Assembly: GCA_017472735.1 (NCBI GenBank)
Contig: JAFUOD010000003.1
Coordinates: 1-64,000 of the forward strand
DNA from: Oscillospiraceae bacterium
GTDB lineage: Bacteria; Bacillota; Clostridia; Oscillospirales; Ruminococcaceae
Direction: 5' to 3'
Length of the DNA: 64,000 nt
Shown: in pieces, positions 12,517-34,750 of the stretch
Layout of the letters: the number at the start of each line of letters is the position of its first letter
Position numbering within the stretch: the first letter of the stretch is position 1
Program-made: the position numbers and the translations under genes
The notes under the pieces: model-generated
The model's database searches: none
What the model was told of the DNA's origin: nothing
Seen by the model: only the letters and a program-made list of their open reading frames with translations

Positions 12517-12549
12517 CGCCCTGCCGAAAAATCGGTAGGGCGATTTTTT
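12517..12549. terminator. Bidirectional terminator between the cysteine-rich gene and the spoIIID 3' end
   Basis: CGCCCTGCCGA (12517-12527) pairs with TCGGTAGGGCG (12532-12542), followed by ATTTTTTA on the plus strand. On the minus strand the same stem lies 6 bp past the spoIIID stop and is followed by a T-rich tract (GTTTCATTTTTC), so it can also end spoIIID. Confidence 0.8.
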
Positions 12550-12697
12550 ATTGCTTTGCAGCGGACAGTTCTAAATACTTTTGCTTGGTTGCCTGCCCTC
12601 CCCTGATGTGGCGCTCCTGTTTGTTAATATCTAAAACTACTTTAACCTCTTTGTAAAGCGACGGCTTAACGTGCTTAAGTCTTTCGCTGACGTCTTT
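12548..12697 (-). pseudogene. spoIIID: spoIIID, 3' part (C-terminal 49 codons), separated from its 5' part by a 21.9-kb element
   Basis: Reading the minus strand from the att core at 12697, codons for K-D-V-S-E-R-L are followed by NKQERHIRGGQATKQKYLE and a TAA at 12550-12548. The ERL helix end and the (R/K)HxRGGxATxxKY motif are the hallmark of the second half of SpoIIID, the mother-cell DNA-binding regulator of sporulation. This fragment has no start or RBS of its own. The missing first 40 codons lie at 34750-34631 on the same strand. The part is intact, not decayed: joining both halves at the shared TATG gives an 89-residue protein (Bacillus SpoIIID is 93). It is classed here as pseudogene only because it is interrupted as sequenced. 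Confidence 0.92.
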
Positions 12698-14228
12698 ATG
12701 TGCAGTCGTTACAAATTGGAACGGTTTCGTCCAGTCCTAACTCTCGGAAGAGTTTGAGGAAGACCTCAACGTTTCCGTTGTGGTCAACCTCGATTCTATC
12801 AATGACTCTCCTGAGCTGTGCGTTAGTTATCTCTCTCAAACTGCTTATATCCTCTATTTCTTTGAAGGTGTCGGCAAGTATCATTTGCAGTTGGTCGCCT
12901 TTTGTAAGGTGCCGTTCTACCATACGCAGTTCACTTTCGAGCCGTTCTAACTCCTGCTTGTCCCCACCGATCTTAGCGTTCAGTTCTTCACGGGTGATAA
13001 GGTCATCGGTATACATATCCATATACTTTTGACGGTTGCGTTTTAATTTTTCTATCGCCGTGCGAAGCTCTTTTTCGTAGGCAACATTTTCATCTTTAGC
13101 ACGATACACCTTTTGGAACTCGCTTACGACTCTACCAATAACATTTTTCTTTTTGGAAAGCATATCAGCAAAGTACTGTTCGATAACCTCGATCAGTTCA
13201 TTTTCATCGACAGAGAGCGCATTGGGACAACTGTCCGCGCCTCTGTTATGACCTGAACATACCCATTTTACATAGGTGTTTTTGTAGGTTCGAACACTAC
13301 GGCGGAAAGACCATCCGCAATCCTTACACTTGATTAATGTTGAGAACAAGTGTAGATTGCTATGTCGTTCCTTATCCACCTTAAACTTTTTACCGCGTTC
13401 TGCTTTGAGACGAGTGGCTTCAGCAAAGTCCTCATCACTTATAATGCGAAGATCGGGACGGTCAACGACATACCATTCGTCCTCGCTTTTTAAGGCTCGT
13501 CTGCCCGTAAGAAAATCGGCAACTTCTTCTTTGCCGTTAATAATCTTACCGGTATACAATTCGTTTTCAAGGATACGGCAAACAGCATTTTGCGACCACT
13601 GACAACCGCGCTTTGTTTTAACCCCGCGCTCGTTAAGCATATAGGATATTTTTGCGGCACCGTATCCTTCATACAAATACCAGCGGTAGATCTGTCGTAT
13701 AACATCAGCTTCCGCTTTGTTAATTGTGAGATTAAAATAATCGCCTATAGTTTTATCGTAGCCAAAGACGATGTTAGGCACTCTGCCTTTTTCGGCATTT
13801 ATCTTTTTACCGAACTTAACACGCTTGGAGGTGTTTGCACTTTCCTCTTGAGCTAAGGCGCCGAAGACGGTCAGCACAAACTCACTGTTTCCCATGCTTG
13901 TCATATTCGCTGTGAGGAATTGTGTTTCAATTCCAAGTTCACGAAGGCGGCGGATGTTTTGTAGGAGGTCAACTGTATTTCGGGCAAAGCGTGATATATC
14001 TTTTACCACGACCATATCGAACAAGCCTAACTCTGCATCTGCCATCATCCGTAGGAACTGCTTTCGATTTTTTATTTTTGTTCCGGACAAGCCTTCATCG
14101 GCATATAGTCTAACAAGGTTGTCCCCAGAACGAGTCGTGTATTCCTGAAAGAAATTTTTTTGTGCTTCTAACGAATTTAACTGATCTTCCTTTTCAGTCG
14201 ATACACGGCAGTAGGCTGCTATATTCAT
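12696..14228 (-). CDS. Large serine recombinase (site-specific integrase/excisionase)
   Basis: A 510-residue TnpX/SpoIVCA-class recombinase. The catalytic domain opens with NIAAYCRVSTEKEDQ (nucleophile Ser10), with DEGLSGTKIKNRKQF and the active-site Arg in KDISRFARN. Next come the recombinase domain (NIVFGYDKT, AKISYMLNERGVKTKRG), a zinc ribbon (CKDCGWSFRR ... WVCSGHNRGADSCPN) and a C-terminal coiled coil. It should cut and join the att sites at 12.7 and 34.6 kb. The ATG at 14228 follows AAAGGAG at 8 bp. The stop codon overlaps the att core, so the excised circle would encode a longer C-terminus. Its promoter resembles that of the DUF6809-like gene 7.3 kb away. Confidence 0.95.
   Translation of the reverse strand: MNIAAYCRVSTEKEDQLNSLEAQKNFFQEYTTRSGDNLVRLYADEGLSGTKIKNRKQFLRMMADAELGLFDMVVVKDISRFARNTVDLLQNIRRLRELGIETQFLTANMTSMGNSEFVLTVFGALAQEESANTSKRVKFGKKINAEKGRVPNIVFGYDKTIGDYFNLTINKAEADVIRQIYRWYLYEGYGAAKISYMLNERGVKTKRGCQWSQNAVCRILENELYTGKIINGKEEVADFLTGRRALKSEDEWYVVDRPDLRIISDEDFAEATRLKAERGKKFKVDKERHSNLHLFSTLIKCKDCGWSFRRSVRTYKNTYVKWVCSGHNRGADSCPNALSVDENELIEVIEQYFADMLSKKKNVIGRVVSEFQKVYRAKDENVAYEKELRTAIEKLKRNRQKYMDMYTDDLITREELNAKIGGDKQELERLESELRMVERHLTKGDQLQMILADTFKEIEDISSLREITNAQLRRVIDRIEVDHNGNVEVFLKLFRELGLDETVPICNDCT
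12697..12714. other. attL-type junction of the spoIIID element
   Basis: Plus strand: chromosomal spoIIID, then core TATG (12697-12700), TG, then the element arm CAGTCGTTACAA (12703-12714). The core recurs at the right end (34630-34633). The arm is an inverted, 10-of-12 match to the right arm at 34618-34629. The recombinase stop codon (12698-12696) lies inside the core. Confidence 0.85.
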
Positions 14229-14259
14229 ATTTTTCTCCTTTCCTGTGGTTTGCGACAAC

Positions 14260-14288
14260 ACAATACCACACAAGTCTTTACAAGTCCA
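14260..14288 (-). promoter_or_regulatory. Element promoter upstream of the recombinase
   Basis: Minus strand TGGACT (14288-14283), 17-bp spacer, TATTGT (14265-14260). The -35, spacer end (TGTGG) and downstream TGTTG...CAAA resemble the region before the gene at 21501, so both are likely read by the same factor. Imperfect TGTGGT/ACCACA repeats flank the -10. Confidence 0.5.
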
Positions 14289-14316
14289 GCGAATATGCCG
14301 ACCTTTCTTTTTATAA

Positions 14317-14346
14317 AAGCCATCCCGCTTTTATGCAGGATGGCTT
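14317..14346 (-). terminator. Terminator overlapping the end of the 54-residue ORF
   Basis: AAGCCATCC pairs with GGATGGCTT around an 11-base loop. On the minus strand it is followed by TTATAAAAAG. The stop codon of the small gene lies inside the loop, so ribosomes reaching the stop would cover the stem. Confidence 0.6.
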
Positions 14347-14495
14347 ATTGCTTCGTCGCTGTTATTAACAGCATTTTTAATTGCTTCTTCAACTTTGGGT
14401 TTGTTGGCTTCAATAAAAAGTTTTAGAAGCATCTCGGCGGTGTCTTCCACCGAGTTCGGATTATTGAACTTATAGTTCAAAGTAACTTTTGACAC
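14331..14495 (-). CDS. Small element protein (54 residues), unknown; possible recombination directionality factor
   Basis: Starts at GTG 14495, nine bases after ATAGGAGGTGC, a strong RBS. The sequence opens with VTLNYKFNNPNSVEDTAEML and continues as a helical, charged protein (LFIEANKPKVEEAIKNAV). I recall similar short proteins in clostridial mobile elements but know no assigned function. It lies just upstream of the recombinase, the usual place for excision factors, so that role is a guess from position. It ends inside a terminator hairpin. Confidence 0.6.
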   Translation of the reverse strand: MSKVTLNYKFNNPNSVEDTAEMLLKLFIEANKPKVEEAIKNAVNNSDEAISHPA

Positions 14496-14545
14496 GATGG
14501 AAGCACCTCCTATTATAAAATCTTGTTTTATAATACATACTATGC

Positions 14546-14647
14546 TCACGCCACTTCTGTTAGCACAGTAAAATTAATCAGTATACCCACCTTTTCTTCA
14601 GAAATATACATTTCTGTTAATAGTTTTTTGTTGTTAAAATTTAGCAT
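14546..14647 (-). CDS. Possible 33-residue peptide between the relaxase terminator and the 54-residue gene
   Basis: ATG at 14647 with AAGGAA about 9 bp upstream; the product begins MLNFNNKKLLTEMYISEEKV and ends ILINFTVLTEVA. It follows the terminator of the mob operon and a small hairpin (CCAAC/GTTGG, 14667-14681). No recognised family. It could be a small element protein or a leader peptide for the next gene, whose start lies 51 bp past its stop. Confidence 0.35.
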   Translation of the reverse strand: MLNFNNKKLLTEMYISEEKVGILINFTVLTEVA

Positions 14648-14682
14648 ATAAATTAATTCCTTTCTCCAACTAAAAGTTGGCA

Positions 14683-14720
14683 TAAAAATAGAGCGTGAGA
14701 TTAGAAATTTTCTCACGCTC
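14683..14720 (-). terminator. Terminator of the mob operon
   Basis: GAGCGTGAGA (14691-14700) pairs perfectly with TCTCACGCTC (14711-14720). On the minus strand it is followed by TATTTTTATG. It begins one base after the relaxase stop. Confidence 0.8.
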
Positions 14721-14721
14721 A

Positions 14722-16101
14722 TTACATACCGCCCATTACATGACCGGTATTTTTCTTTTGTCTGCGAGGATGTTGCATCGTGGTGCAATCTTCCACGGGA
14801 GCATCCTCGTCGATTATATTGCCGAGATTGCCGACAAGATATGCCGCATCAGTTCCAACACTATGAGTACCGCCGAAGGTATCAGCGATATCCAAAACAG
14901 TTTGTTCGTATGCCTCTCCAGCTTGTCCTCCGCCGTACTGCGAAGCATAGAGAGACTCTGTGAACAGCTCTCGTTCATTCTCCCAACCTGTTTCTCGGTA
15001 TCCGCTATCAGTTGCTTGATACTCCTCGTCAGTTCCGCCGCCGATGTTTCCATCGCCGTCTGAAACTGTTCGGTCACTTCTTTGGTCTGTTCGGTGTACT
15101 GCATCAGTACCGTAAGCTGCCGATCCATATACGCTTTCAATTCTTTCTCGGTCGTCAGCGTAGGCAGGGTATCCCGAATCTCTTTCAGCAATTCTATCTG
15201 TGATCTCTGCGTAGATATCATTGCCATCCAGTTCGGCTCGGTCACCGCCACACAGGGATGAACCTTTTCGGCGGCGGTGATCTTCTGTTGTGCTTCGGTT
15301 ATTAAATCTTGCGGTAATTTCCGCTCGGTATAAGAATTCATATTCCATACTCTCCTTTAAGAATTTTGTTAGGTGTAATTTGCTGTCCCGACAGGCTTTG
15401 CCTTCAGGTGTAGTGTAGGTGATGTTTTTGCGAGTGTCCGTCCACTTGACACCGTAGCCTTCCGCTTCCATCAGCATAATAAAATGCTCTTTTGATACGG
15501 CAGTTTGCATTGCGTTGGAGATAACAGCTTCAAGCCGTATCTTCCAACTCTCGCCCTTTTCGGCTGACCGACACTCTCGGTCGGACATCGGTTTTGCTCT
15601 CTCGGATATAGGCTTGGGTTCTAAAATCGTCAGTCCATATTCACGGCAGAGGGCATCGCATTTTTGCATCAGCATTTCCACTTCATTTTCGGTGATGTGA
15701 AACTTTTTACCGCTGTCTGCGTTTACGCTGTTGAGAACAAAATGCGTGTGGATATGGTCACGGTCAAGGTGTGTGGATGCCACCACCTCGAAGCCCTGAA
15801 ACTTTTCCGTTTCAGAAACAAACCGCAAAGCAATTTCGTGTGCCGTCTGCGGTGATATATTTTCATCCACCGAGAAGGATTGCACGAAATGATAGAATAA
15901 ACGCTTATCCGTTTTACCATATAATTTCTTTGTATTATTGAACTCGGTATAAGCGGACTGCGGTGTGCAGTTGATACCGCTGACATATTTTTTGCCGTCA
16001 TCGTCAACAGTTTTCTTCTCCTGCATCGTGTATCGCAGAACAAACAGCATACTTTTATTTGTCTGCGGCTTTTGGTAATTTACGAAATGAACAATAGCCA
16101 T
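14722..16101 (-). CDS. Relaxase (MobA/VirD2-like mobilization nuclease)
   Basis: A 459-residue conjugative relaxase that would nick oriT and pilot the element strand into a recipient. The N-terminal domain has the metal-binding histidines in HLDRDHIHTHFVLNSVN (about residues 111-127) and a tyrosine-rich N-terminus (NYQKPQ, LRYTMQEKKT) as seen in clostridial MobP-type relaxases. The start ATG at 16101 follows GGGGGTG; mobC ends 4 bp before it. The last ~170 residues are low-complexity Gly/Asp/Tyr/Arg-rich and coincide exactly with another gene in a different frame, so their sequence is probably shaped by that gene. Confidence 0.92.
   Translation of the reverse strand: MAIVHFVNYQKPQTNKSMLFVLRYTMQEKKTVDDDGKKYVSGINCTPQSAYTEFNNTKKLYGKTDKRLFYHFVQSFSVDENISPQTAHEIALRFVSETEKFQGFEVVASTHLDRDHIHTHFVLNSVNADSGKKFHITENEVEMLMQKCDALCREYGLTILEPKPISERAKPMSDRECRSAEKGESWKIRLEAVISNAMQTAVSKEHFIMLMEAEGYGVKWTDTRKNITYTTPEGKACRDSKLHLTKFLKESMEYEFLYRAEITARFNNRSTTEDHRRRKGSSLCGGDRAELDGNDIYAEITDRIAERDSGYPAYADDRERIESVYGSAAYGTDAVHRTDQRSDRTVSDGDGNIGGGTDEEYQATDSGYRETGWENERELFTESLYASQYGGGQAGEAYEQTVLDIADTFGGTHSVGTDAAYLVGNLGNIIDEDAPVEDCTTMQHPRRQKKNTGHVMGGM
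14814..15341 (-). CDS. Nested mobilization protein (MobB-like) in another frame of the relaxase gene
   Basis: A 175-residue frame lying entirely inside the relaxase gene, same strand. The ATG at 15341 follows AAAGGAGA at 9 bp. The product looks like a real protein: a polar N-terminus, a long helical coiled-coil part (EVTEQFQTAMETSAAELTRSIKQLI, about 95-120) and a C-terminal membrane segment (LFWISLIPSAVLIVLELM, about 149-166). Nested mobB/mobD genes within mobA are known in ColE1-type plasmids, where MbeB is also a small membrane-associated helper of the relaxosome. The same role is inferred from structure and position, not from detectable sequence similarity. Confidence 0.75.
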   Translation of the reverse strand: MNSYTERKLPQDLITEAQQKITAAEKVHPCVAVTEPNWMAMISTQRSQIELLKEIRDTLPTLTTEKELKAYMDRQLTVLMQYTEQTKEVTEQFQTAMETSAAELTRSIKQLIADTEKQVGRMNESCSQSLSMLRSTAEDKLERHTNKLFWISLIPSAVLIVLELMRHILSAISAI

Positions 16102-16105
16102 AATA

Positions 16106-16408
16106 TCACCCCCTTCCAAGCTCGGCGGCAAGCAGTTCATAAATCTTTTTCAGTTCCTCTTGGGTAGCGGTAAGATTTACGGTGCTGATCCTTCCCTGAC
16201 GGGAGAGTATCAGCAATTGATTGACATTGTTGCCGAGCTTTTTTACTTGTGTGGTCAGTTCCTTGAGGCCGTCATAATTAACCACCTTTTTATCAATTGC
16301 GCAGTAAATAATATAGTCGGTTATACTCATTCCCGCGCTTTCGGCTTTGTGCCGGATCAGAGCATCCATCGTATCGGAGACTCTGAAATTAAATCTTTTA
16401 CTTTTCAT
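16106..16408 (-). CDS. MobC-like relaxosome accessory protein
   Basis: A 100-residue protein with an N-terminal ribbon-helix-helix-like DNA-binding part (KSKRFNFRVSDTMDALIRHKAESAGMSITDYI) and the conserved helical LTTQVKKLGNNVNQL segment of bacterial MobC. It should bind oriT and help the relaxase open the strand. The ATG at 16408 follows AGGAGTG at 8 bp. Four bases separate its stop from the relaxase ATG, and the candidate oriT lies immediately upstream. Confidence 0.85.
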   Translation of the reverse strand: MKSKRFNFRVSDTMDALIRHKAESAGMSITDYIIYCAIDKKVVNYDGLKELTTQVKKLGNNVNQLLILSRQGRISTVNLTATQEELKKIYELLAAELGRG

Positions 16409-16466
16409 AAAAACAATCACTCCTGTTCGTAATAAAGTGGGTGCAGGGCTTCTGCCCGCCCAGAAT

Positions 16467-16513
16467 GCGTTTGGCACAGCCGCCGCTTTAGCGGTGGGTG
16501 TACAGCCAAATGC
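16467..16513. other. Candidate oriT: nested inverted repeats upstream of mobC
   Basis: The 325 bp between mobC and the rep gene hold no convincing gene but several inverted repeats. The best is nested: outer GCGTTTGGC (16467-16475) with GCCAAATGC (16505-16513), inner CCGCCGC (16480-16486) with GCGGTGG (16491-16497). A further perfect stem TCTCTCCT/AGGAGAGA lies at 16523-16540 and a GGGC/GCCC pair at about 16447-16456. Position beside mobC and stem structure fit an origin of transfer; the nick site was not identified. Confidence 0.45.
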
Positions 16514-16733
16514 GATGCTGGTTCTCTCCTAAAGGAGAGAAATAAAAAGCGGTAGTTTTTATCGTTATTTGAGTAACTCTCAGCGACAAATCTCCGCACA
16601 CTCGGCTCATATTTGCCCTGTGTTGCGTTTTGACCGAGGCGGTCTGGTGTTTTCCCGAACGCTCTTTTGCTCTCGTCAAACGGGCGGACAAACGCTTCAT
16701 AGGAACGCAAGGGACGAAAGTGACGAATGTTTT

Positions 16734-17774
16734 CTACACCGAATTTGTTGCGTCACTTACGACACTTTCGTCACTGCTCACAGCAGAAGAAGGAATATAT
16801 TTCACTTCCAATAGCCGTATTCCGTTACTGCGGTGGTCACGGTAATGCACACCCAAATTTTCAAGTTCATACCGCCATCGGTTCATCAGTTGCTTGAACC
16901 CTTTGACCGTTACCTCGCTATCAGTCGCTGCATTGAACTGCTCAACGAATTCACTGTTGCTGCTATCGAAATGCTTACGCTCTTTCATAAAACCAACGAG
17001 TGATTCCATCTCCGGCGGTAGCATTTTTTCGGGTTGCTCACGGCTGTCGGATTTTACTTCCCATACAAAATCCTTTTGAGAAAACCGCAACTCAAACTGC
17101 CGATGCTCAATATCTCTGCCTGTGCAAACGAGTGTGGCGAGGTTTTCACTGCGCTTACTTTTATCAAGCACGAACACCGAATCAACTGCGCCTACGATTC
17201 CGGTCGTGCCTGACAGCTTATTCAGCGGATCGCTGTCGCCCTGCTTACGAAGATGATGCACCAGCAGAAGAGAGATGCCAAGCTCATCTGCCAACTGTTT
17301 CATCTGCCGTATCTCATCGTAATCGTTACCGTAAGAGGTATCCACGCCGCCGTTACGCACGATCTGAAAGGTATCGATTGCAACAAATACGGTGTCGGGA
17401 TGCTCTTTTACGAAACCGCGAATCTCATCGCAGAGACCTTCGGCAAGTGTATGCGCTGCCGTTGCAAAGAAAGCGTTTGATGGCACATCATCCGTAATGC
17501 AGTTGAGCCGTTCCTGCACACGCCGGAGCGTATCTTCCAAACAAAGATAGAGCGTTGTACCTTTGGTGGTTGGCATATCCCACACGCTTTCTCCTTTGGC
17601 GATGCGGACACACAGATCCAACACCCACCACGATTTACCGATTTTAGGCGCACCGCCGAGGATCGTTATTCCTTGCGGTAGCAGAGTGTCGATACAAAAT
17701 TTGGTCGGTTCCAGTCTTGTATCCATTAATGTTTCGCCGTCTATGACGGCAAGTTTCGGCTTGTTTTCAGTCAT
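16734..17774 (-). CDS. RepA-like AAA ATPase (hexameric helicase type)
   Basis: A 346-residue RecA-fold protein of the AAA_25/RepA helicase group. Walker A is GGAPKIGKSWW (residues 40-50), Walker B VFVAIDTFQ (about 129-137), followed by LLLVHHLRKQ, the sensor motif. The C-terminal ~100 residues look like a winged-helix DNA-binding tail (NEFVEQFNAATDSEVTVKGFKQLMNRW), but with the Ser/Val-rich end typical of an extension. By family it unwinds DNA for replication of a plasmid or excised element. The ATG follows AAGGAGG. Its upstream region contains a long hairpin shared with the divergent gene. Confidence 0.85.
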   Translation of the reverse strand: MTENKPKLAVIDGETLMDTRLEPTKFCIDTLLPQGITILGGAPKIGKSWWVLDLCVRIAKGESVWDMPTTKGTTLYLCLEDTLRRVQERLNCITDDVPSNAFFATAAHTLAEGLCDEIRGFVKEHPDTVFVAIDTFQIVRNGGVDTSYGNDYDEIRQMKQLADELGISLLLVHHLRKQGDSDPLNKLSGTTGIVGAVDSVFVLDKSKRSENLATLVCTGRDIEHRQFELRFSQKDFVWEVKSDSREQPEKMLPPEMESLVGFMKERKHFDSSNSEFVEQFNAATDSEVTVKGFKQLMNRWRYELENLGVHYRDHRSNGIRLLEVKYIPSSAVSSDESVVSDATNSV

Positions 17775-17800
17775 CTGAAAACACCTCCTTAAAATAAAGT

Positions 17801-17840
17801 AAGGGCGAGAGTCAAAGTTTTTGCCTTGACTTTCGCCCTT
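17801..17840. other. Long hairpin in the divergent control region of the rep gene
   Basis: AAGGGCGagAGTCAAAG (17801-17816) pairs with CTTGACTttCGCCCTT (17825-17840), interrupted by a small mismatch loop. It lies in the leader of the rep gene (minus strand) and just before the plus-strand promoter at 17845. No long T run follows on either side. It may bind a regulator or control rep translation. Confidence 0.5.
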
Positions 17841-17844
17841 CTAC

Positions 17845-17873
17845 TTGTATTGTGTAAGAAAAAATGATAAAAT
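17845..17873 (+). promoter_or_regulatory. Predicted promoter of the DUF6076-like gene
   Basis: TTGTAT (17845-17850), 17 bp, TAAAAT (17868-17873), about 60 bp before the TTG start. Confidence 0.6.
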
Positions 17874-17934
17874 AATAATTGTCATATACAATATAAAACT
17901 ATTTGCTGACAAATTAAAGTTAGGAGGTGTTCAC

Positions 17935-19251
17935 TTGTTCGGATGTATATCTTTTTGCGTGGGTGATAAAAGCATTGAAATTAACGGTGAAAAGTTTTCG
18001 CTCGGTGACATTACAACCCAGTTTTTAAATCTTCCCAAAGATAAATACGCAGCTATGCGCGAACAGTTAGAACTTGCACAAAGCAAGTTGAACGAATATA
18101 TACAGAGTAAAAAACTTTCCGATTGGTATGATGCCAACGAGGAATATATAAAACTTGATTCTATGATCTGCGAGTTTCCGTGCTTAATGCTTTTGCGTGA
18201 GAACACAGATATTTTTACGGAAGCGAAGCTATTGACAGCACCGTCCGATGATATATCGGAAGAAACAGATTTTGAACTTACCGAGCACGATCTTGAAATT
18301 TTAAATAAAATAAACGCTTATGAGGATTATCTTGAACATCCCGAAAATTATGGTGGTTTAGATGAAAGTTATATAACCTCTACCCGTACAGAGCAGACCT
18401 TTATTATGAAAACACCGCAGCCACCGATTCCTGAACCGCCACCCGAAAAAACAATGGCCCTGCTTGTGTTTCCGGGCAACCTTGCTTTTAAATGGAAATA
18501 TTATAAAGATTACTGCGATGCTTATGCTCATGCACTATATGACATAGCGTCTTTCAATACTACAATCTTTAATTTTATAAAGTTCTTTTTATCCCATCTT
18601 AAAAAACTTGACGCCAACAATTATGTAATGGCTCTTGACGACTTTTTTAATCACCCCCGTGCCGATAAATTTATCGCAAACCCAATGCAAGGCACCGGCC
18701 TTTTTACTGCCAACGATCAAGTCATCATGCGCCATCAGCCAAGAGAGACTTTTGAAGGTTCGGGTGAATATAAAATCTATCAATATTATGAAGTGGAGTC
18801 GTTACAGGCGCTGCTTAAAATGGATTTTTACAAGGCATTAGAGACGGGATATATTATCCGCAAGTGTGAATACTGCGGCAGATATTTTCTGTTAAAAAAA
18901 GGATACCATACAAAGTATTGCGACAACCCTGCGCCTGATAATCCTCAATACACCTGTGCTCAACTTGGATATCACCGCAAGGGAATAAAAGAACTACAAG
19001 CAGACAACCCCAAGGCACAATCTCTTCGCCGTTGTTATCTGCGTATCGATAAGGATTTATCACGGGGAGTGATAACACACAAAGAAAAAGATAAATTATA
19101 TCGCACGGCGCAAGATTTATATTACGATGCTACCACACAGTCGGGAACAACAAACGACGAATTCGAAGCACAACTCGCATCTAAAAATCTGTACCCAATG
19201 TGTGATGTTGTTCGTAGAACAAAACCGCGCGGCAGACCGAAGGCTGAATAA
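17935..19251 (+). CDS. DUF6076-like protein with C-terminal CxxC zinc motif, unknown function
   Basis: A 438-residue protein. The start is TTG at 17935, placed by TAGGAGGTG 6 bp upstream; a frame extending to 17845 has no RBS. A central region (residues ~195-290) is helical and aromatic-rich. The C-terminal third has a putative zinc site CEYCGRYFLLKKG...TKYCDN followed by YTCAQLGYHRKG, then a basic tail (RRTKPRGRPKAE). The pattern resembles DUF6076/CGNR-type zinc fingers, commonly found in clostridial integrated elements. I know no proven role; DNA or RNA binding is inferred from the zinc motif and basic tail. Confidence 0.65.
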   Translation: MFGCISFCVGDKSIEINGEKFSLGDITTQFLNLPKDKYAAMREQLELAQSKLNEYIQSKKLSDWYDANEEYIKLDSMICEFPCLMLLRENTDIFTEAKLLTAPSDDISEETDFELTEHDLEILNKINAYEDYLEHPENYGGLDESYITSTRTEQTFIMKTPQPPIPEPPPEKTMALLVFPGNLAFKWKYYKDYCDAYAHALYDIASFNTTIFNFIKFFLSHLKKLDANNYVMALDDFFNHPRADKFIANPMQGTGLFTANDQVIMRHQPRETFEGSGEYKIYQYYEVESLQALLKMDFYKALETGYIIRKCEYCGRYFLLKKGYHTKYCDNPAPDNPQYTCAQLGYHRKGIKELQADNPKAQSLRRCYLRIDKDLSRGVITHKEKDKLYRTAQDLYYDATTQSGTTNDEFEAQLASKNLYPMCDVVRRTKPRGRPKAE

Positions 19252-19306
19252 AGTACGGTTTATGGGACACATCGTTTGTTAGAATTATAGTAGAGGAGGT
19301 GAGCTT

Positions 19307-20307: not shown

Positions 20308-20311
20308 ATGC

Positions 20312-27188: not shown

Positions 27189-29891
27189 TTATGCTTTCTT
27201 GCCCTTGCGGTAGGTGACTTTAACCTCGTCAACCTTTGCAGGTGCGGCAACATCAGCCGCAGTGGGCTTCTTAGCTTCAACAAAATGCTTGCCATAGTAA
27301 GCGTTCAGATACATCTGCTTGATTTCACTCATAAGAGGATAGCGGGGGTTAGCGCCGGTGCACTGATCGTCAAATGCCTGTTCAACCATATCGTCAAGAC
27401 GGTCAAGGAAGTCTTTTTCGTCAATACCGTAATCCTTGATGGTATCTTTAATGCCAACTCTTGCCTTAAGGTCGTTAATTGCCTTAATAAGATTTTCAAG
27501 TTTTTCTTCATCGCTCTTGCCGCCGAGTCCGAGATAATCGGCAATTTCAGCATAGCGGGCAAGGGTATGGGGATGATCGTACTGAGAGAACGTACCCATT
27601 TTAGCAGGTGCTTCTGCCGCATTGAAGCGGAGAACTTCTTCGATCATCAATGCGTTGGCAACACCGTGAGGCAGATGATGGAAAGCGCCCAATTTGTGAG
27701 CCATAGAGTGACAAACACCCAAGAACGCATTGGCGAAAGCCATACCTGCCATTGTTGCAGCATTAGCCATTTTTTCACGGGCTTCAATATCGGTCTGACC
27801 GTTATCATAAGCACGAGGCAGATATTTGAATATGTTTTTAAGAGCCTGCAGAGCCAAACCGTCAGTATAGTCTGTTGCGAGCATTGCGGCATAGGCCTCT
27901 ACTGCGTGGGTTACAGCGTCAATACCGGAAGCAGCCGTCAGTCCCTTGGGTGCGCTCATATGGAAATCCGTGTCAATGATTGCCATATTGGGAAGCAATT
28001 CATAATCGGCAAGCGGATATTTTACGCCGCTGTCACCGTCGGTAATAACAGCGAAGGGGGTAACCTCAGAACCGGTACCGGCAGAGGTAGGAATAGCGAT
28101 AAAGTATGCTTTTTCGCCCATTTTCGGGAAAGTGTATACACGCTTGCGGATATCGATAAAGCGCATAGCCATATCCATAAAGTCTGCTTCGGGATGCTCG
28201 TAAAGTACCCACATAATTTTTGCCGCGTCCATAGCAGAGCCACCGCCGAGGGCTATGATGGTATCGGGCTGGAATGCCGCCATCTGCTTTGCGCCATCCT
28301 GTGCGTTTTTGAGCGTGGGATCGGGCTGAACATCAAAGAATGTGGTATGCTGAATACCCATTTCATCTAATTTTTCGGTAATCGGCTTAGTATAGCCATT
28401 CTGATACAGGAAGGTGTCTGTTACGATAAATGCCTTTTTAGCGCCACGCACCGTCTTAAGCTCATCGAGAGCCACAGGCAGACATCCTTTCTTGATATAT
28501 ACCTTTTCGGGTGCACGGAACCAAAGCATATTTTCCCTTCTTTCTGCTACTGTTTTAATATTCAAAAGATGTTTAACGCCAACGTTTTCCGAAACCGAGT
28601 TGCCGCCCCAAGAGCCGCAACCGAGTGTCAGAGACGGAGCAAGCTTAAAGTTGTAAAGGTCACCGATACCACCGTGAGAAGACGGGGTATTAACAAGAAT
28701 TCGGCAGGTCTTCATACGGGCGGCAAACTCCTGAAGCTTCTCCTTCTCGGTAACTTCATTAAGATAAATAGAGGAGGTATGACCGTAGCCGCCGTCTGCA
28801 ACAAGATGCTCTGCCTTTTGGAGCGCATCTTCAAAGTCGGTTGCTTTATACATAGCAAGCACGGGACTTAACTTTTCGTGAGCAAATTCTTCAGAAAGCT
28901 CTACGCTCTCAACCTCACCGATGAGAATTTTTGTACCTTCGGGCACTGTAACGCCGGAAAGCTCTGCAATTTTAGCGGCAGGCTGACCAACGATTTTAGC
29001 ATTAAGCGCACCGTTGATAATGATAGTCTTTCTAACCTTTTCGGTTTCCTGCGGATTTAAGAAGTAACAGCCTCTGGTCGCAAACTCTTCCTTTACAGCA
29101 TCGTAGATGCTTTCGAGCACGATAACTGACTGCTCGGAAGCACAGATCATACCGTTATCAAAGGTTTTAGAATGAATAATGGAGTTTACCGCAAGCAGAA
29201 TATCGGCACTTTCATCAATGATGGCAGGAGTGTTACCGGCTCCTACACCAAGCGCAGGCTTTCCGCTTGAATAAGCGGCTTTCACCATTCCGGGGCCGCC
29301 GGTGGCGAGGATGATGTCAGCTTCCTTCATAACCATATTTGTCATATCAAGAGAAGGTACGTCGATCCAATCGATAATGCCTTCGGGAGCACCGGCCTTA
29401 ACTGCGGCTTCAAGCACAAGCTTTGCGGCAGCAATGGTGCTGTTCTTTGCTCTCGGATGAGGAGAAATGATGATAGCGTTTCTTGTTTTGAGTGCTAAAA
29501 GACACTTGAAGATTGCTGTGGATGTGGGGTTTGTGGTGGGAATAACCGCCGCAATAACACCAATGGGTTCAGCGATCTTTTTGATGCCATAGGACGAATC
29601 TTCTTCAATAACGCCGCAGGTCTTGGCATTTTTGTAAGCATTGTAAATATATTCCGAAGCATAGTTATTTTTGATAACCTTATCTTCTACAATACCCATA
29701 CCCGTTTCTTCCACTGCCATTTTTGCAAGAGGAATTCTTGCTTTGTTGGCAGCAGATGCGGCGGCTAAGAAGATTTTATCTACCTGTTCCTGTGTATAGG
29801 TAGCAAATACTTTCTGAGCCTCTCTTGTGCGTGCGATAGCTTCTTCAAGTTTTTCAACGCTATCTACTACTAAATAGTTTTTGGTGTCCAT
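27189..29891 (-). CDS. adhE: Bifunctional acetaldehyde-CoA/alcohol dehydrogenase
   Basis: A 900-residue fusion that reduces acetyl-CoA to acetaldehyde and then ethanol, oxidising two NADH. The N-terminal aldehyde dehydrogenase domain (1-~440) has the catalytic cysteine in NGMICASEQS (about 245). The C-terminal iron alcohol dehydrogenase (about 455-870) has GGGSAMDAAKIMW for NAD and the metal-binding histidines in DAVTHAVEAYA, CHSMAHKLGAFHHLPHG. Residues after ~870 form a Lys/Ala-rich tail. It follows rex by 11 bp on the same strand; Rex is the classical NADH-sensing repressor of adhE. Confidence 0.97.
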   Translation of the reverse strand: MDTKNYLVVDSVEKLEEAIARTREAQKVFATYTQEQVDKIFLAAASAANKARIPLAKMAVEETGMGIVEDKVIKNNYASEYIYNAYKNAKTCGVIEEDSSYGIKKIAEPIGVIAAVIPTTNPTSTAIFKCLLALKTRNAIIISPHPRAKNSTIAAAKLVLEAAVKAGAPEGIIDWIDVPSLDMTNMVMKEADIILATGGPGMVKAAYSSGKPALGVGAGNTPAIIDESADILLAVNSIIHSKTFDNGMICASEQSVIVLESIYDAVKEEFATRGCYFLNPQETEKVRKTIIINGALNAKIVGQPAAKIAELSGVTVPEGTKILIGEVESVELSEEFAHEKLSPVLAMYKATDFEDALQKAEHLVADGGYGHTSSIYLNEVTEKEKLQEFAARMKTCRILVNTPSSHGGIGDLYNFKLAPSLTLGCGSWGGNSVSENVGVKHLLNIKTVAERRENMLWFRAPEKVYIKKGCLPVALDELKTVRGAKKAFIVTDTFLYQNGYTKPITEKLDEMGIQHTTFFDVQPDPTLKNAQDGAKQMAAFQPDTIIALGGGSAMDAAKIMWVLYEHPEADFMDMAMRFIDIRKRVYTFPKMGEKAYFIAIPTSAGTGSEVTPFAVITDGDSGVKYPLADYELLPNMAIIDTDFHMSAPKGLTAASGIDAVTHAVEAYAAMLATDYTDGLALQALKNIFKYLPRAYDNGQTDIEAREKMANAATMAGMAFANAFLGVCHSMAHKLGAFHHLPHGVANALMIEEVLRFNAAEAPAKMGTFSQYDHPHTLARYAEIADYLGLGGKSDEEKLENLIKAINDLKARVGIKDTIKDYGIDEKDFLDRLDDMVEQAFDDQCTGANPRYPLMSEIKQMYLNAYYGKHFVEAKKPTAADVAAPAKVDEVKVTYRKGKKA

Positions 29892-29902
29892 TTTGTATCC
29901 TC

Positions 29903-30529
29903 CTAATTAAAATTACATAATTGGTTGTTAAGGTGTGCAAGGGAAAGTGCTAAATTTTCGTTTTGAAGCAGTACATTGGCGGGAACCTTTAATTTGCAAG
30001 GAGCAAAGTTCCATATTGCCACAATTCCGCTTTTAACCATTTTGTCGCATACCGCTTGGGCTGAGCCTGCGCCTACTGTTATGATACCCAGTTGAATATT
30101 TTGTGTTTTGCAGAAATATTCAAACTGATTCATAGGCAGTATTTCCGTTTTTGAGCCGAGACTGATTACCTGTTCATTCGAATCAAAGGCGGCAGAAATT
30201 TTTACGCCGTACCGTTCAAACTCATCGTATTGCAGTAGCGCTCTACCTAACTTTCCGGCGCCAACAAGTACGGCAGAGGTAAGGCTGTTATGTCCTAAAG
30301 CTTCTTCAAGTCTTTCGATAAGTTCAGTCGTTACATAACCGAGCTTAGGTTTTCCTGCGCCGCTGACGGCCGCAAGGTCTTTCCTTACCTGAACCTCGCC
30401 AAAAGACAGCTTTTTGGCAATAACCGTTGCCGATATGTACGGAACCTTGTTCGGTTCGCATTCTCTCAGCATTTCAAGATAAAGCGGTAATCTGCCCAAA
30501 GTAGCCTTTGAAACAGAGTTTTTCTCCAT
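29903..30529 (-). CDS. rex: Redox-sensing transcriptional repressor Rex
   Basis: A 208-residue Rex. The N-terminal winged helix reads TLGRLPLYLEMLRE and SFGEVQVRKDLAAVSGAGKPKLGY. The Rossmann domain (VLVGAGKLGRALLQY) binds NAD(H); WNFAPCKLKVP is also family-typical. It senses the NADH/NAD ratio and represses fermentation genes when NADH is low. It is the first gene of the operon that includes adhE and the hydrogenases, and a possible Rex site lies 25 bp upstream of its start, which would mean autoregulation. Confidence 0.95.
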   Translation of the reverse strand: MEKNSVSKATLGRLPLYLEMLRECEPNKVPYISATVIAKKLSFGEVQVRKDLAAVSGAGKPKLGYVTTELIERLEEALGHNSLTSAVLVGAGKLGRALLQYDEFERYGVKISAAFDSNEQVISLGSKTEILPMNQFEYFCKTQNIQLGIITVGAGSAQAVCDKMVKSGIVAIWNFAPCKLKVPANVLLQNENLALSLAHLNNQLCNFN

Positions 30530-30553
30530 CGCCTTGCCTCCTTTATTTCAACT

Positions 30554-30571
30554 TTGATATTATTTTAACAA
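30554..30571. promoter_or_regulatory. Candidate Rex operator upstream of rex-adhE
   Basis: TTGATAT-TATT-TTAACAA: an 18-bp imperfect palindrome whose right half is a consensus clostridial Rex half-site (TTAACAA), the left half matching at five of seven positions. It lies between the rex ATG and any upstream promoter. Confidence 0.5.
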
Positions 30572-30694
30572 TTTTTCGGAGGCTTGAAAATTCTTAAAAT
30601 GGATAATCGGTATTATCAATATCGATAACCCCTGTATCGAAAGCAAAAAATATAGCCCAACCTCAATTAAGAGATTGGGCTTGAAAATATGAAA

Positions 30695-31624
30695 TTAAAT
30701 GTATTTTCTTTTGGCCTCGCACAACTCTGTGATGAACTGACGATCCAAACTTGATAGCTTATATCCATCTTTATAAATCAAAACATCCTTATATACTTTT
30801 TTATTATCGGCGCATTTTCTTTGAACGAGATTATATCGTTCAAGGAGACTCTTGGGCACAGGAGACACCCACATAAATGTTTCGGGATTGATTGACAACA
30901 AATCAAATTGACTTGCTCTTTCAAATATAAATATCCTTCGGTCAATATTATCGGGCAATTCCTCTTTTACAACCTTTGAAAGCGGCATAGACGGCACATA
31001 CGGATCAGCGTGAGCAATTTCAATGCAGTCCGTCAGGTCATCAAAAGTAATTTCGCTTTTTTGAGCCAACGGGTTATCCGCGCTCATAATAAGTGAATAG
31101 GTAAACTCTGTGACCAATTCATACTGAAAACCTTTTTCTTCAAGCATAGCCTTAAAATATTTATCATAGTTTTCAGCGTATCGGATAATGCCGAGCTTAT
31201 AATCGTGATTGAGCATATTGTGGATCGTGCGCTGTGAGTTTGTTTCTTTATAAAATACCTCGACTGCATCCTTTGAAAGCGATTTTGAAAACTGTGCGAA
31301 AGCCTCGGATATATAAGAGGCACGTGGAACGGATATGGAAAACTTTTGCTTTTTGGGTGAGCCTGCCTTGTAAAACTTTTCAACCTCATCAATTTGACCG
31401 AGAATACCTTTGGCAAAATTTATAAATTCTTCGCCTTCGGGAGTCAGCTTCATTCCGTTTTGTGTGCGGTCAAAAATCGTAATGCCAAGGTCGGTCTCCA
31501 GTTCCTTTATAGAACGGCTGATATTCGGTGCGGCAATGAGCAGCACCTCCGAGGCCTTGCTGAGCGAACCCGCTTTCGCCACCTCAAGCGCATGCTTCAT
31601 ATGTAATAAATTCAAATACTTCAC
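30695..31624 (-). CDS. LysR-family transcriptional regulator
   Basis: A 309-residue LysR protein. The N-terminal HTH (HALEVAKAGSLSKASEVLLIAAPNISRSIKELE, residues ~10-42) is followed by FDRTQNGMKLTPEGEEFI and the periplasmic-binding-like effector domain. It ends 165 bp before rex on the same strand; the gap contains the Rex site and no terminator of its own. It may control the rex operon or the neighbouring transporter. Effector unknown. Confidence 0.9.
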   Translation of the reverse strand: MKYLNLLHMKHALEVAKAGSLSKASEVLLIAAPNISRSIKELETDLGITIFDRTQNGMKLTPEGEEFINFAKGILGQIDEVEKFYKAGSPKKQKFSISVPRASYISEAFAQFSKSLSKDAVEVFYKETNSQRTIHNMLNHDYKLGIIRYAENYDKYFKAMLEEKGFQYELVTEFTYSLIMSADNPLAQKSEITFDDLTDCIEIAHADPYVPSMPLSKVVKEELPDNIDRRIFIFERASQFDLLSINPETFMWVSPVPKSLLERYNLVQRKCADNKKVYKDVLIYKDGYKLSSLDRQFITELCEAKRKYI

Positions 31625-31737
31625 CGCCCTTTTTATTACTTTTTTATATTATAACATTTTTTGCTGATAAAATCAATTGGTACCAAAAGCAGAAACAAGG
31701 TGCAAAAAAACAAAGAATAAATTTAACAAAACAAACT

Positions 31738-32628
31738 TTATTTTTGTTCAAAAAGCATTTTGGTTAATTCTTTCGCCGCAACACTTAAAGAGATATCCTT
31801 TTTTGTGACAAGGCATATCGAGCCGTTCGGAATTTTTTCTTTAAGACTGAGCCGAATAATATGTTCTTTTTCGTTATCGTTTTCCACGAACATTTCGGGA
31901 ACAAAGCCGATTCCAAGATTGTGCTTTATCATCGGTAAAAGCTGATCGGTGGTTGCGGCTTCCATATCAGGTGAAAAAACGAGTCCGTTTTCAGAGAACC
32001 ATTTGGAATATAATTCATAAGTCTTTGTTTTTGAGTCAAGGCTTACAATAGGATATTCGGCAAGCTCTTTGAGAGTCATTTTTTTAGTTTTAAGTTCGGA
32101 ATATGCTGTTCCGCATACTGCGACAGAAGAAAAAGATTTAATATTTACAGCCTTCATATCTTCTTTAATTCCCGTTGGTGTGGTAACAAGAGCAAAATCA
32201 GCAAGACCGTTTCTAAGTTCTGATATTGCTTGTGGAGTAGAGCAATTTGATATTTTTATTCTAACTCCCGGAAATGAAATATGATAACTTTCAAGCACGG
32301 GCAGAAGTAAACCGTGTAATGCCACTTCGCTTACGGCGATAGAAACAATCCCTTTCTGCAAGGTCTTATCAAGAGATATTTCTGCTTCTCCTGCTTCAAT
32401 TTGCTGAAAGGCGACCGCAATATGCTGATATAACTTTTCGCCTTCAGGGGTCAGCGTTACGCCTTTGTTAGAACGAATGAAAAGAGTACAGCCAAGCTCA
32501 TATTCCAATGCTTTAATTGCTCTTGTAATGTTTGGCTGATTATTAAGCAAAGCATTTGCCGCCCCAGTAAAACTGCCGCATTTTGCAACGTAATAAAAAA
32601 TCCTGTAATAATCATAGCTAATGTTCAT
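31738..32628 (-). CDS. LysR-family transcriptional regulator, divergent from the MATE exporter
   Basis: A 296-residue LysR protein with HTH (FYYVAKCGSFTGAANALLNNQPNITRAIKALE) and effector domain. The start at 32628 is preferred to 32643 because GGTGAG lies just upstream and the family N-terminus fits. It is divergent from the small membrane protein and MATE genes, the standard arrangement for a LysR regulator and its target. It is not closely similar to the adjacent LysR protein. Confidence 0.9.
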   Translation of the reverse strand: MNISYDYYRIFYYVAKCGSFTGAANALLNNQPNITRAIKALEYELGCTLFIRSNKGVTLTPEGEKLYQHIAVAFQQIEAGEAEISLDKTLQKGIVSIAVSEVALHGLLLPVLESYHISFPGVRIKISNCSTPQAISELRNGLADFALVTTPTGIKEDMKAVNIKSFSSVAVCGTAYSELKTKKMTLKELAEYPIVSLDSKTKTYELYSKWFSENGLVFSPDMEAATTDQLLPMIKHNLGIGFVPEMFVENDNEKEHIIRLSLKEKIPNGSICLVTKKDISLSVAAKELTKMLFEQK

Positions 32629-32678
32629 CAAACTCACCACCATATCAATTTGACATAAACTGAATATAACATATACAT

Positions 32679-32707
32679 TTTACATATATCGGCTTTTGAA
32701 TTATAAT
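32679..32707 (+). promoter_or_regulatory. Predicted promoter of the MATE exporter pair
   Basis: TTTACA (32679-32684), 17 bp, TATAAT (32702-32707), in the gap between the divergent LysR gene and the transporter genes. Confidence 0.7.
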
Positions 32708-32781
32708 ACAAAAGAAAGCGTATGTCAACGCAAAATCAAAACTACCAGTGAAATGCATACGCAAAACGGAGGTTGAATTAT

Positions 32782-33093
32782 ATGGAGACTGTATTTGAAT
32801 GTTTAATGTTGTTAGGTCTAATTGCCGCAATGTGTGTATTGATTTATCGGTTTGCAAAGAATAAATCAACAAACATCAAGGTAGAAAGAACGGTAGCGTG
32901 GACAATGGCTGTAGGCTTTGCTCTTGGTGTGGTCAAAGAACTTATATTTCCACCGGTGCGTTGGATTTTAATTCTATATGCAATCGGTGCAATTCTCGCC
33001 TATACTGCGGCTGCTTTTTCCTATCCTTATCACAGCGATACTGAAAACAATGAGGAGAAAATCGCTATTCCTCTCGATCAGGAGGAAACCTAA
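32782..33093 (+). CDS. Small membrane protein upstream of the MATE exporter, unknown
   Basis: A 103-residue protein with about three membrane segments (residues 4-24, 38-56, 63-82) and an acidic, soluble tail (HSDTENNEEKIAIPLDQEE). The ATG at 32782 follows GGAGG at 9 bp. Its stop codon touches the ATG of the MATE gene, so both are translated together. No family recognised; an accessory of the exporter is suggested by the coupling only. Confidence 0.65.
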   Translation: METVFECLMLLGLIAAMCVLIYRFAKNKSTNIKVERTVAWTMAVGFALGVVKELIFPPVRWILILYAIGAILAYTAAAFSYPYHSDTENNEEKIAIPLDQEET

Positions 33094-34434
33094 ATGAACA
33101 AAGATCTGACGGTAGGTAAAACTTCCACAGTTCTATGGAAGTTTTGCCTGCCATTGTTTGGAAGCATCATCTTTCAGCAGCTATATAACATTGCTGATAG
33201 TTTTGTTGCAGGAAAGTTTGTAAGTGAAGATGCCTTGGCGGCAGTAGGCAACAGTTATGAAATCACCTTAATATTCATAGCGTTTGCTTTCGGCCTAAAT
33301 ATCGGTTGCTCGGTTATTACAGCCCAACTTTTCGGTGCGAAAAACTATAAAGAAATGAAAACCGCTGTTTATACAACCCTGATTGCAGGCGGTGTGCTTT
33401 GTGCCGTATTGATGGCTATCGGCGGAATATTCTGCACCGACCTTTTGAAGCTTATCAATACCCCCGATAATGTTTTGGCAGACTCCAAACTTTATTTGGA
33501 TATTTACATATTAGGATTGCCATTTGTCTTTTACTACAATATTGCTACAGGCATCTTTTCGGCTTTAGGGGACTCCAAAACCCCGTTTATATTCCTTGCC
33601 TGCTCGTCACTTTCTAATATCGGTATGGATATATTGTTTGTCACCGCATTCAAAATGGGAGTGTCGGGCGTAGCGTGGGCAACCTTTATCTGTCAAGGAA
33701 TCAGTTGTATCTTGGCTGTTGTCGTTGTTTTTATTCGATTTTCAAAAATTAAAACGAGAGAAAGAGCTGATGTTTTTTCGTGGAAACTGCTCCGTAAAAT
33801 ATCTGTAGTTGCTATACCGAGTATTCTGCAACAAAGCTTTATCTCCGTTGGAAATATCGTAATTCAGGGCATTATAAACTCCTTTGGCTCGGCTGTAATG
33901 GCAGGCTATTCAGCCTCCATTAAACTCAACAATTTGGTTATAACATCGCTCACAACGCTTGGTAACGGTATTTCAAACTTTACGGCACAAAATCTTGGAG
34001 CCAAAAAGCCTGAACGTGTAAGGGAGGGCTTCAAAGCCGGAATTAAATTGGTATGGGCGCTTTGCATACCGCTTACGCTTATATATGTCTTTGCGGGTAA
34101 ATATCTGCTCTGTATTTTTCTTGAAAACCCAAGCGGAACGGCTATGAATGTCGGTATCGAGATATTGCGTATCCTTGCACCGTTTTACTTGGTTGTTTCT
34201 GCTAAACTCGTTGCAGACGGTGTGCTTCGTGGGGAAGAAATGATGAACAAATTTATGATAGCAACATTTACCGACCTTATACTGCGTGTAGTTCTTGCCA
34301 AGGCACTATCCGTCATATTTGGCACAACAGGAATTTGGCTTGCTTGGCCTATCGGTTGGACGGTCGCAACAGTGCTTTCAGTCGTTTTTTACCGAACGGG
34401 AAAATGGAAAAAAGCGAAAATAACAAATGCATAA
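33094..34434 (+). CDS. MATE-family multidrug/sodium exporter
   Basis: A 446-residue protein with twelve predicted membrane helices in two similar halves, as in MATE transporters (NorM/DinF-type). The family motif at the start is LWKFCLPLFGSIIFQQLYNIADSFVAGKFV, with DALAAVGNSYE next. These proteins export cationic drugs or metabolites using Na+ or H+. It is probably controlled by the divergent LysR regulator. Last gene of the element before the right att site, closed by a strong terminator. Confidence 0.93.
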   Translation: MNKDLTVGKTSTVLWKFCLPLFGSIIFQQLYNIADSFVAGKFVSEDALAAVGNSYEITLIFIAFAFGLNIGCSVITAQLFGAKNYKEMKTAVYTTLIAGGVLCAVLMAIGGIFCTDLLKLINTPDNVLADSKLYLDIYILGLPFVFYYNIATGIFSALGDSKTPFIFLACSSLSNIGMDILFVTAFKMGVSGVAWATFICQGISCILAVVVVFIRFSKIKTRERADVFSWKLLRKISVVAIPSILQQSFISVGNIVIQGIINSFGSAVMAGYSASIKLNNLVITSLTTLGNGISNFTAQNLGAKKPERVREGFKAGIKLVWALCIPLTLIYVFAGKYLLCIFLENPSGTAMNVGIEILRILAPFYLVVSAKLVADGVLRGEEMMNKFMIATFTDLILRVVLAKALSVIFGTTGIWLAWPIGWTVATVLSVVFYRTGKWKKAKITNA

Positions 34435-34485
34435 ACTCAATATTTATGCCAGTTTACAAAAATTTCTATTAGAGTACCCTAACCG

Positions 34486-34525
34486 AAAAGATAGCACCCA
34501 ATTTTTTAGTTGGGTGCTATCTTTT
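34486..34525. terminator. Bidirectional terminator after the MATE gene
   Basis: Perfect 16-bp inverted repeat: AAAAGATAGCACCCAA (34486-34501) with TTGGGTGCTATCTTTT (34510-34525). It also stands between the spoIIID 5' fragment and the element, so it can stop read-through from the spoIIID promoter. Confidence 0.85.
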
Positions 34526-34591
34526 ACTATTTTCAGTTTACTTAATACGATATTCTTTCACTTGTGATTTATGCGTTTTAAGATATTTATG

Positions 34592-34750
34592 CTACCAACC
34601 ACACAAACCGTTCGTTATTGTTACTACTGTATGCACTGTGGATTTACTGATTCCGAACTGCCTTGCTGTTTGTCTTACCGTTGCTTTGTGCGTAATTATG
34701 TATTCGCCCAAAATTACAGGGCGTTCGCAGTCCCCGGGCATCTTAGTCAT
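34592..34750 (-). pseudogene. spoIIID: spoIIID, 5' part (first 40 codons), interrupted by the element
   Basis: ATG at 34750 follows GGGAGTGAG. Forty codons read MTKMPGDCERPVILGEYII and then THKATVRQTARQFGISKSTV-H, the N-terminal helix-turn-helix of SpoIIID. At the TATG core (34633-34630) the sequence leaves spoIIID; 12 element-encoded codons follow (ending LCGW) before a TAG at 34594-34592. The truncated 52-residue product would lack the C-terminal basic tail needed for DNA binding. The continuation, K-D-V-S-E-R-L and beyond, is at 12697-12548. No clear sigma-E promoter was identified upstream; the 34751-34812 gap is AT-rich with TAATATAAA at about 34780. Confidence 0.92.
34618..34633. other. 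attR-type junction of the spoIIID element
   Basis: Plus strand: element arm TTGTTACTACTG (34618-34629), core TATG (34630-34633), then spoIIID sequence CACTGTGGATTT. The arm is an inverted 10-of-12 match to the left arm at 12703-12714. Confidence 0.85.

Follow-up and report, generated by a model that had tools for sequence, protein, structure and literature searches.

A small number of sporulation genes are named in the literature as being split by intervening elements, namely sigK, spsM, spoVFB, gerE and yabG, as far as the available text of PMC10747680, PMC5595907 and PMC6957869 goes. The available part of PMC5025042 describes the skin element of the Clostridioides difficile sigK gene, where the recombinase is CD1231 and the recombination directionality factor (RDF) is CD1234, a protein of 72 aa under the control of sigma-E and SpoIIID. 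Here, we describe a 21,933-bp element that splits spoIIID itself in an Oscillospiraceae bacterium (assembly GCA_017472735.1). The window analyzed is the 64,000-nucleotide stretch at positions 1 to 64,000 of contig JAFUOD010000003.1. No description of a spoIIID-splitting element was found in the literature searched, most subscription papers being beyond its reach. Judged from sequence, this is a skin-like arrangement in a gene that we have not found reported as split, and it is carried by a mobile family. We are fairly confident that an integrative element splits spoIIID, that excision in the mother cell, timed by sigma-E, rejoins the gene, and that the recombinase gains a tail in the excised circle.

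The two parts of the gene can be read directly on the minus strand. The N half, codons 1-40, lies at 34631..34750 and the C half, codons 41-89 and the stop, at 12548..12697; they match the Pfam SpoIIID model at 45.4 and 64.8 bits, respectively (cut-off 27). The whole intervening element, delimited by comparing the junctions, occupies 12698..34630. When the halves are joined in silico, they produce a single 89-residue SpoIIID, in which ...KSTVH is followed directly by KDVSERL..., with no bases gained or lost. The core common to both junctions is CATA on the minus strand (TATG on the plus strand). The initial annotation had proposed these two halves and a TATG core, and its coordinates and 89-residue join were reproduced. 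A split sporulation gene whose parts join in frame, a site-specific recombinase of the element's own and matching attachment sites at each end are features that it shares with the sporulation gene-intervening, or skin-type, elements.

A second complete spoIIID and a misassembly had both been raised as possible objections. The profile search of the source genome returned two SpoIIID matches only, which are the two halves, and no second copy. The source genome is a draft of 29 contigs, which leaves some room for misassembly or chance juxtaposition, but the same codon, arms and gene order recur in many independent assemblies, including those of relatives and contigs of 3.5 Mb (Blautia massiliensis GD8) and 6.3 Mb (Schaedlerella arabinosiphila). 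Because the split at this codon recurs in this way, misassembly is very unlikely, and we give that explanation virtually no weight.

The gene adjoining the C half encodes a large serine recombinase (12696..14228, minus strand; 510 aa when integrated), and its Pfam Resolvase, Recombinase and zinc ribbon domains bear out the initial annotation on this point. Relatives of this recombinase in named genomes number 231, and the best 80 were kept for analysis. A SpoIIID C half lies just downstream of the recombinase in 75 of these 80 by tblastn and in 76 after the remaining five were read. Of those five, L093 has its C half at the contig end, the contig of L137 ends at the core, and L066, L075 and L116 are inserted elsewhere. 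Two of the genomes with the recombinase at another site are without a SpoIIID match, and one has an intact gene. The carrier hosts include Blautia, Pseudoflavonifractor, Flavonifractor, Angelakisella, Agathobaculum, Extibacter, Schaedlerella and many uncultured Clostridia. Within the family of the source bacterium, the C half falls within the fetched flank at 21 of 28 recombinase loci, and the N half does so at three of the other seven. At locus L047 (G315 C24), it is the SpoIIID N half, rather than the C half, that adjoins the end of the recombinase gene, as would be seen with an inverted element. A phage or plasmid origin was considered and set aside, there being no recombinase of at least 60% identity in either collection. 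The best phage record for the recombinase, at 54.8% identity, is MT838016.1 (L211), a 6.4-kb GenBank entry labeled "Bacteriophage sp." in which the C half of SpoIIID directly follows the related recombinase; it looks like a chromosomal attR fragment.

Comparison of the junctions locates attL at 34608..34640 (minus strand), where spoIIID ...GTGCAT is followed by the element arm ACAGTAGTAACAATAACGAACGG, and attR at 12691..12724 (minus strand), where the element arm CCGTTCCAATTTGTAACGACTGCACAT is followed by spoIIID AAAGACG. These sites are conserved across 33 distinct complete elements, the number left of 35 after L082 and L124 were removed as duplicates of L190 and L183. The left junction has host CAT (CAC in L177) and then an arm like ATGGTAGTAACAAAATAGAACGGTT; the right has an arm like AACCGTTCTAATT...ACCATACAT (CAC in L185) and then host codon 41. 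The arms form an imperfect inverted repeat centered on the dinucleotide CA of the His40 codon. The core presumably codes for the recognition-helix region of SpoIIID.

The reconstructed attP falls within the recombinase gene, and the frame is open to the core in 31 of the 33 elements. In 29 of these 31, the integrated recombinase stops at the core with a TAA completed by the first bases of host codon 41. The source recombinase is of this kind, its stop borrowing bases of spoIIID codon 41, and L175 and L185 run on a little past the core because their host codons differ. In the circle, the frame would be extended by at least 10 residues in 29 of the 31 (14 residues in 14 elements, 17-18 in 11), with a terminus resembling IERFVWVIE; for the source, the extension is 14 residues (YSSNNNERFVWLVA). 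The exceptions to these frame patterns are L172 and L174, which stop before the core, L177, which stops at the core, L091, with 4 residues, and L181, with a long dissimilar tail. Thirty tails were analyzed, including that of L174, whose recombinase ends before the core. In 24 of the 30, the fourth residue from the end is Trp, as against 0 of 29 in the next frame and 1.4% of shuffles. In these 24, the penultimate codon is always Ile or Val, with the third base free. This looks like a protein-coding constraint acting only in the circle. Since attP lies within the recombinase gene, a single crossover would make both genes whole, spoIIID in the chromosome and the recombinase gene in the circle.

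One other gene is constant. It encodes a protein of 54 aa in the source element (14331..14495, minus strand; GTG start preceded by GGAGGTG), which is a candidate for the excision, or directionality, factor. Related proteins of about 54-110 residues with the motif L-N-Y-x-F-H-N-P-N...K-V-E are encoded at 72 of the 80 named loci and in 33 of 33 complete elements, a count that shows presence and not independent discovery, since the elements searched include the 22 whose 23 proteins served to build the model. No Pfam family was assigned at the default level to three members scanned (one matched DUF2540 at E 0.056) and no NCBIfam family to two members scanned; the protein of the source element has no match in either. 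Nor was a convincing homolog found in the elements that split sigK, where the best match was at E 0.031 over 21 residues.

A sigma-E-like promoter, CTA-N16-CATAG, matches by pattern upstream of this gene (14540..14563, minus strand). Over the family, the strict pattern [AC]TA-N16-CATA[CG] is found upstream of the small-protein gene in 31 of 34 regions, and NTA-N16-CATA is found in all 34. Shuffled sequences gave on average 0.24 matches to the strict pattern and never more than 3, and a spacing of 16 alone stands out. Of 33 elements, 25 show the same strict layout before spoIIID and one shows it before the recombinase; for other genes, the count is 2 of 269. In the source, the sequence before spoIIID (34782..34804, minus strand) is CTA-N16-AATA, which is not the strict form; on inspection by eye, other members of the genus show the layout. 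A promoter layout apparently common to spoIIID and the gene of the candidate excision factor is one of two features that strike us as unusual. The other is the recombinase C terminus, which would depend on integration.

The initial annotation had suggested looking for an uninterrupted gene in relatives. Of 31 genus genomes, 23 have spoIIID at or near full length, truncated by a contig end in two of them and accompanied by an additional half in four; five have halves only and three have none. Fifty of the 80 named carrier genomes were searched, and 46 have strong matches of half length only (43 with both halves, three with the C half only). Among the other four, G466 combines halves with an intact copy whose flanks are just 70-84% similar, one has an intact gene only, and two have none. 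SpoIIID was matched in 335 of the 396 family genomes, and only at half length in 30 of these. Twenty-three of the 26 family genomes with a close recombinase fall among those 30 (Fisher p ~2e-26, a nominal value because related genomes are not independent). The 30 of 335 and 23 of 26 were counted by hand from tables, excluding two very weak matches (G105, G399). One further family genome, G085 (3.1 Mb in 510 contigs, 6% contamination), has 10 SpoIIID matches.

It could be supposed that these hosts gave up sporulation and that the split gene is a harmless landing place. Two genomes, G424 and G430, carry the recombinase without any SpoIIID match, G424 also lacking a SpoIVA match, and the split carrier G422 has no SpoIVA match either. 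Against this, the C halves have no stop and retain the motif RH[IL]RGG.AT in 96 of 96 cases (three genomes counted twice), SpoIVA is kept in 63 of 65 genomes searched and Spo0A in 15 of 15, and the promoter layout of spoIIID is retained in the 25 elements noted above. The source genome is among those that keep SpoIVA and among those that keep Spo0A. Its SpoIVA is encoded outside the window, at contig C20:66889-68361, and its sigma-K-like gene is uninterrupted (274.5 bits, below the model cut-off of 298.65). Decay of the site, therefore, seems to us highly doubtful. The skin-like character proposed by the initial annotation gains support from the uninterrupted gene in most genus genomes, the split relatives, the open C halves, the retention of SpoIVA and Spo0A and the sigma-E-like layout on the candidate RDF. 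In two Pseudoflavonifractor genomes, the spoIVA matches are themselves in two pieces, in G427 at C20:236830-237279 and 489488-490534, 252 kb apart, and in G429 on C195 and C241; this is possibly a further split sporulation gene or a rearrangement.

Spread of the element between hosts is evident from a comparison of recombinase and target over 96 loci. There are 305 pairs of recombinases at least 90% identical, and in 191 of these pairs, the adjoining SpoIIID C halves are less than 75% identical. In a roe-deer gut genome, the recombinase matches that of the source at 96% identity and the C half at 57%. By this evidence, which is of sequence only, the element spreads between hosts, as integrative mobilizable elements do, and is a member of a horizontally mobile family with spoIIID as its preferred target. 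The initial annotation had read the locus as a developmental switch; the skin-like part of that reading is supported, the element is one member of a mobile family rather than a private developmental element, and excision at sporulation keeps the status of something inferred. Mobility also opens another explanation, that of an ordinary integrative mobilizable element to which a conserved gene is just an attachment site; it would excise only when transferring and, while resident, would keep its host from sporulating. The relaxase and NikA-like genes in the source element would suit it, as would the 191 divergent pairs and the insertion in mid-gene rather than at the end. The sigma-E-like layout on the partner gene would then be purposeless, other sporulation genes are retained, and all 96 C halves are open. 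We consider such a sporulation-blocking element rather unlikely.

The explanation that we favor, excision in the mother cell, would run as follows. The target of the recombinase would be the conserved sequence coding for S-T-V-H-K-D, part of the DNA-binding region of SpoIIID, and with the crossover at the CA of the His40 codon, integration splits the gene. In the sporulating mother cell, sigma-E would turn on both the 5' part of spoIIID and the small element-borne directionality factor. Together with the recombinase, this factor would bring about precise excision, spoIIID would be rejoined in frame, and the mother-cell program would continue. The mother cell then dies, and the forespore chromosome would retain the element. 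The same crossover would close attP within the recombinase gene, and recombinase made from the circle would have a C-terminal tail absent from the integrated copy. This tail probably separates the circle, or integrating, form of the recombinase from the resident form. Excision at sporulation, with its timing and cell type, we infer, no excised product having been observed, and we propose roles for the small protein and the tail on the same footing. A more elaborate version, which we put forward tentatively and at somewhat less than even odds, is that the single crossover is a double developmental switch, rejoining spoIIID and creating a longer, circle-only recombinase (tail like IERFVWVIE) that favors integration into the spoIIID of another host. 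Where sigK is also split, there would be two successive excisions, with sigma-E freeing spoIIID and SpoIIID then helping to free sigK.

Several observations weigh against excision in the mother cell. Neither an excised circle nor a rejoined gene was seen in the source genome. A scan of viral contigs for attP produced 0 hits, which is a weak test because the pattern fits only 10 of 33 reconstructed attP sites; a scan of 59 genomes was void, its pattern having fitted 0 of 33 reconstructed sites. Seven of the 30 half-only family genomes are without a close recombinase, and one split carrier, G422, has already been mentioned as lacking SpoIVA. The strict promoter pattern occurs before spoIIID in 0 of 23 genus regions, where the -10 is CATATA or AATATA by eye, and it is found 5 times in or near the source element, so that there, the pattern alone is not significant. 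Sigma-E is assigned to these promoters by their resemblance to known ones and by analogy with C. difficile. Finally, since elements move frequently, the intact halves may partly reflect recent insertion.

Some assemblies contain both an occupied and an empty site. In G019, two contigs have exactly 77 bp in common up to the crossover, one continuing into attL and the other into an intact gene. In G128, two contigs have exactly 127 bp in common, beginning from TACAT before the C half. These look like assembly forks at the crossover and would fit excision, as well as mixed strains. A fork in G090, also with exactly 127 bp in common, lies off the crossover and was not used. In G021, G025, G030, G355, G388 and G466, the intact and half copies differ in sequence, so these were taken as mixtures of strains or species and left unused.

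Spare halves of spoIIID accumulate at some loci. Arrays containing them were seen at L190 (G436), L206/L207 (G437), L209 (G458) and L191 (G003). L190 has three units of promoter and N half, the middle N half being damaged and the one beside the live element intact, a contrast that speaks for excision in the mother cell. G436 and G437 share a 2.3-kb unit at 99.2% identity, against 77-79% for the host flanks. In G003, a distance of 2.6 kb separates two C halves. In G032 C2 (L249), G193 C1 (L251), G354 C36 (this match below the cut-off), G171 C18 (L250) and G240 C49, an N-half scar precedes an intact spoIIID at a distance of 70 bp to 15 kb. We read the arrays and scars as old elements beside a restored gene.

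Complete elements range from 3.8 to 21.9 kb, and beyond the recombinase and the one small gene, no gene cluster occurs in more than 13 of the 33. The source element is probably integrative and mobilizable, given Pfam matches for its integrase, a MobA/VirD2-type relaxase (14722-16140, minus strand; PF03432, over cut-off) and a NikA-like protein (16106-16477, minus; PF21983, over cut-off). Next come an AAA protein (16734-17774, minus; PF13481, over cut-off), a DUF6076 protein (17845-19251, plus; Pfam), a sigma-region-4-like frame (19631-20161, plus; Pfam match below cut-off), a lipoprotein-like frame without a Pfam match (20312-21220, minus) and a DUF6809 protein (21217-21597, minus; Pfam). They are followed, all on the minus strand, by an [FeFe] hydrogenase B1 (21609-23036; NCBIfam TIGR04105, 567.9 bits, over cut-off), a SpoIIE-like phosphatase (23049-24221; TIGR02865, 40.8 bits, below cut-off) and a hydrogenase-like sensor (24214-25893; NCBIfam matches below cut-off). 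The remaining genes were named by eye from their translations: two small ferredoxin-like proteins (25900-26187 and 26159-26437, minus), a kinase-like protein (26421-27170, minus), a bifunctional AdhE-like dehydrogenase (27189-29891, minus), a Rex-like regulator (29903-30529, minus), two LysR-type regulators (30695-31624 and 31738-32643, minus) and a MATE-type transporter (33094..34434, plus). The AdhE is the only full-length match found in the source genome, which puts a central enzyme of fermentation on a mobile element. Phage-like genes are common in skin-type elements but not a requirement, the gin element having none. No phage genes were recognized among the open reading frames of the element or in the Pfam and NCBIfam scans; PHROGs was not run.

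Elsewhere in the family, the cargo includes likely defense genes. In a PADLOC scan of ten cargo proteins, eight matched, although this is no survey because the proteins were picked as likely defense genes. The matches include AbiLi- and AbiLii-like proteins, type I and IIG restriction-modification, a cytosine methylase, AbiH and PDC-S28. The AbiLi-like cluster is in 13 of 33 elements and the AbiLii-like cluster in 9 of 33, with one member of each scanned.

Elements that split sigK were also encountered. At L252 (G462) and L253/L254 (G008), a recombinase of another subfamily stands beside the sigK C half, and in two sigK elements, an AAA and RloB-like pair was recognized by eye as cargo. In G462, sigK and spoIIID are both split on one contig. 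Both are probably split in G446, with the sigK halves on two contigs (L255, L256), and G024/G468 have only a sigK C half at a contig start.

The previously known splitters of sporulation genes concern a handful of genes and are mostly single cases. Here, an early mother-cell regulator appears as the preferred target of a mobile family, with defense and metabolic cargo, across many gut Clostridia. This would account for annotations that show no normal spoIIID in such genomes, and it makes the question of parasite versus switch for split developmental genes directly testable in cultured gut commensals. An integration-dependent recombinase C terminus would also be a new handle on direction control in serine integrases. 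There is a parallel in the phages with integration-dependent immunity, in which attP lies within a coding sequence and integration alters the C terminus of the repressor. Both systems have attP in a coding sequence, but the changed protein is the repressor there and the recombinase here.

The sigK elements of the host relatives G008 and G462 are like this one in having a serine recombinase (576-578 aa) adjoining the C half of the split gene. However, those two recombinases are only 24-26% identical to the source recombinase, which places the latter outside the sigK skin recombinase subfamily. The C. difficile skin, likened by its description in the available part of PMC5025042, also splits a mother-cell regulator and employs a large serine recombinase and a small RDF; its target is sigK, whereas here it is spoIIID itself. 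The gin element in gerE of Bacillus cereus is similarly a non-phage element in the gene of a small mother-cell transcription factor, with a serine recombinase and an extra factor, GirX. It differs in having three recombinases, a 9-bp core, gerE as the target and an occurrence in few Bacillus strains, as far as the available text of PMC5595907 goes. The yin element in yabG of Clostridium botulinum again combines a split sporulation gene with a recombinase and a candidate RDF that has a sporulation-type promoter. According to the portion of PMC10747680 available, yin is prophage-like and reported as unique to one strain, whereas the element in spoIIID belongs to a large family.

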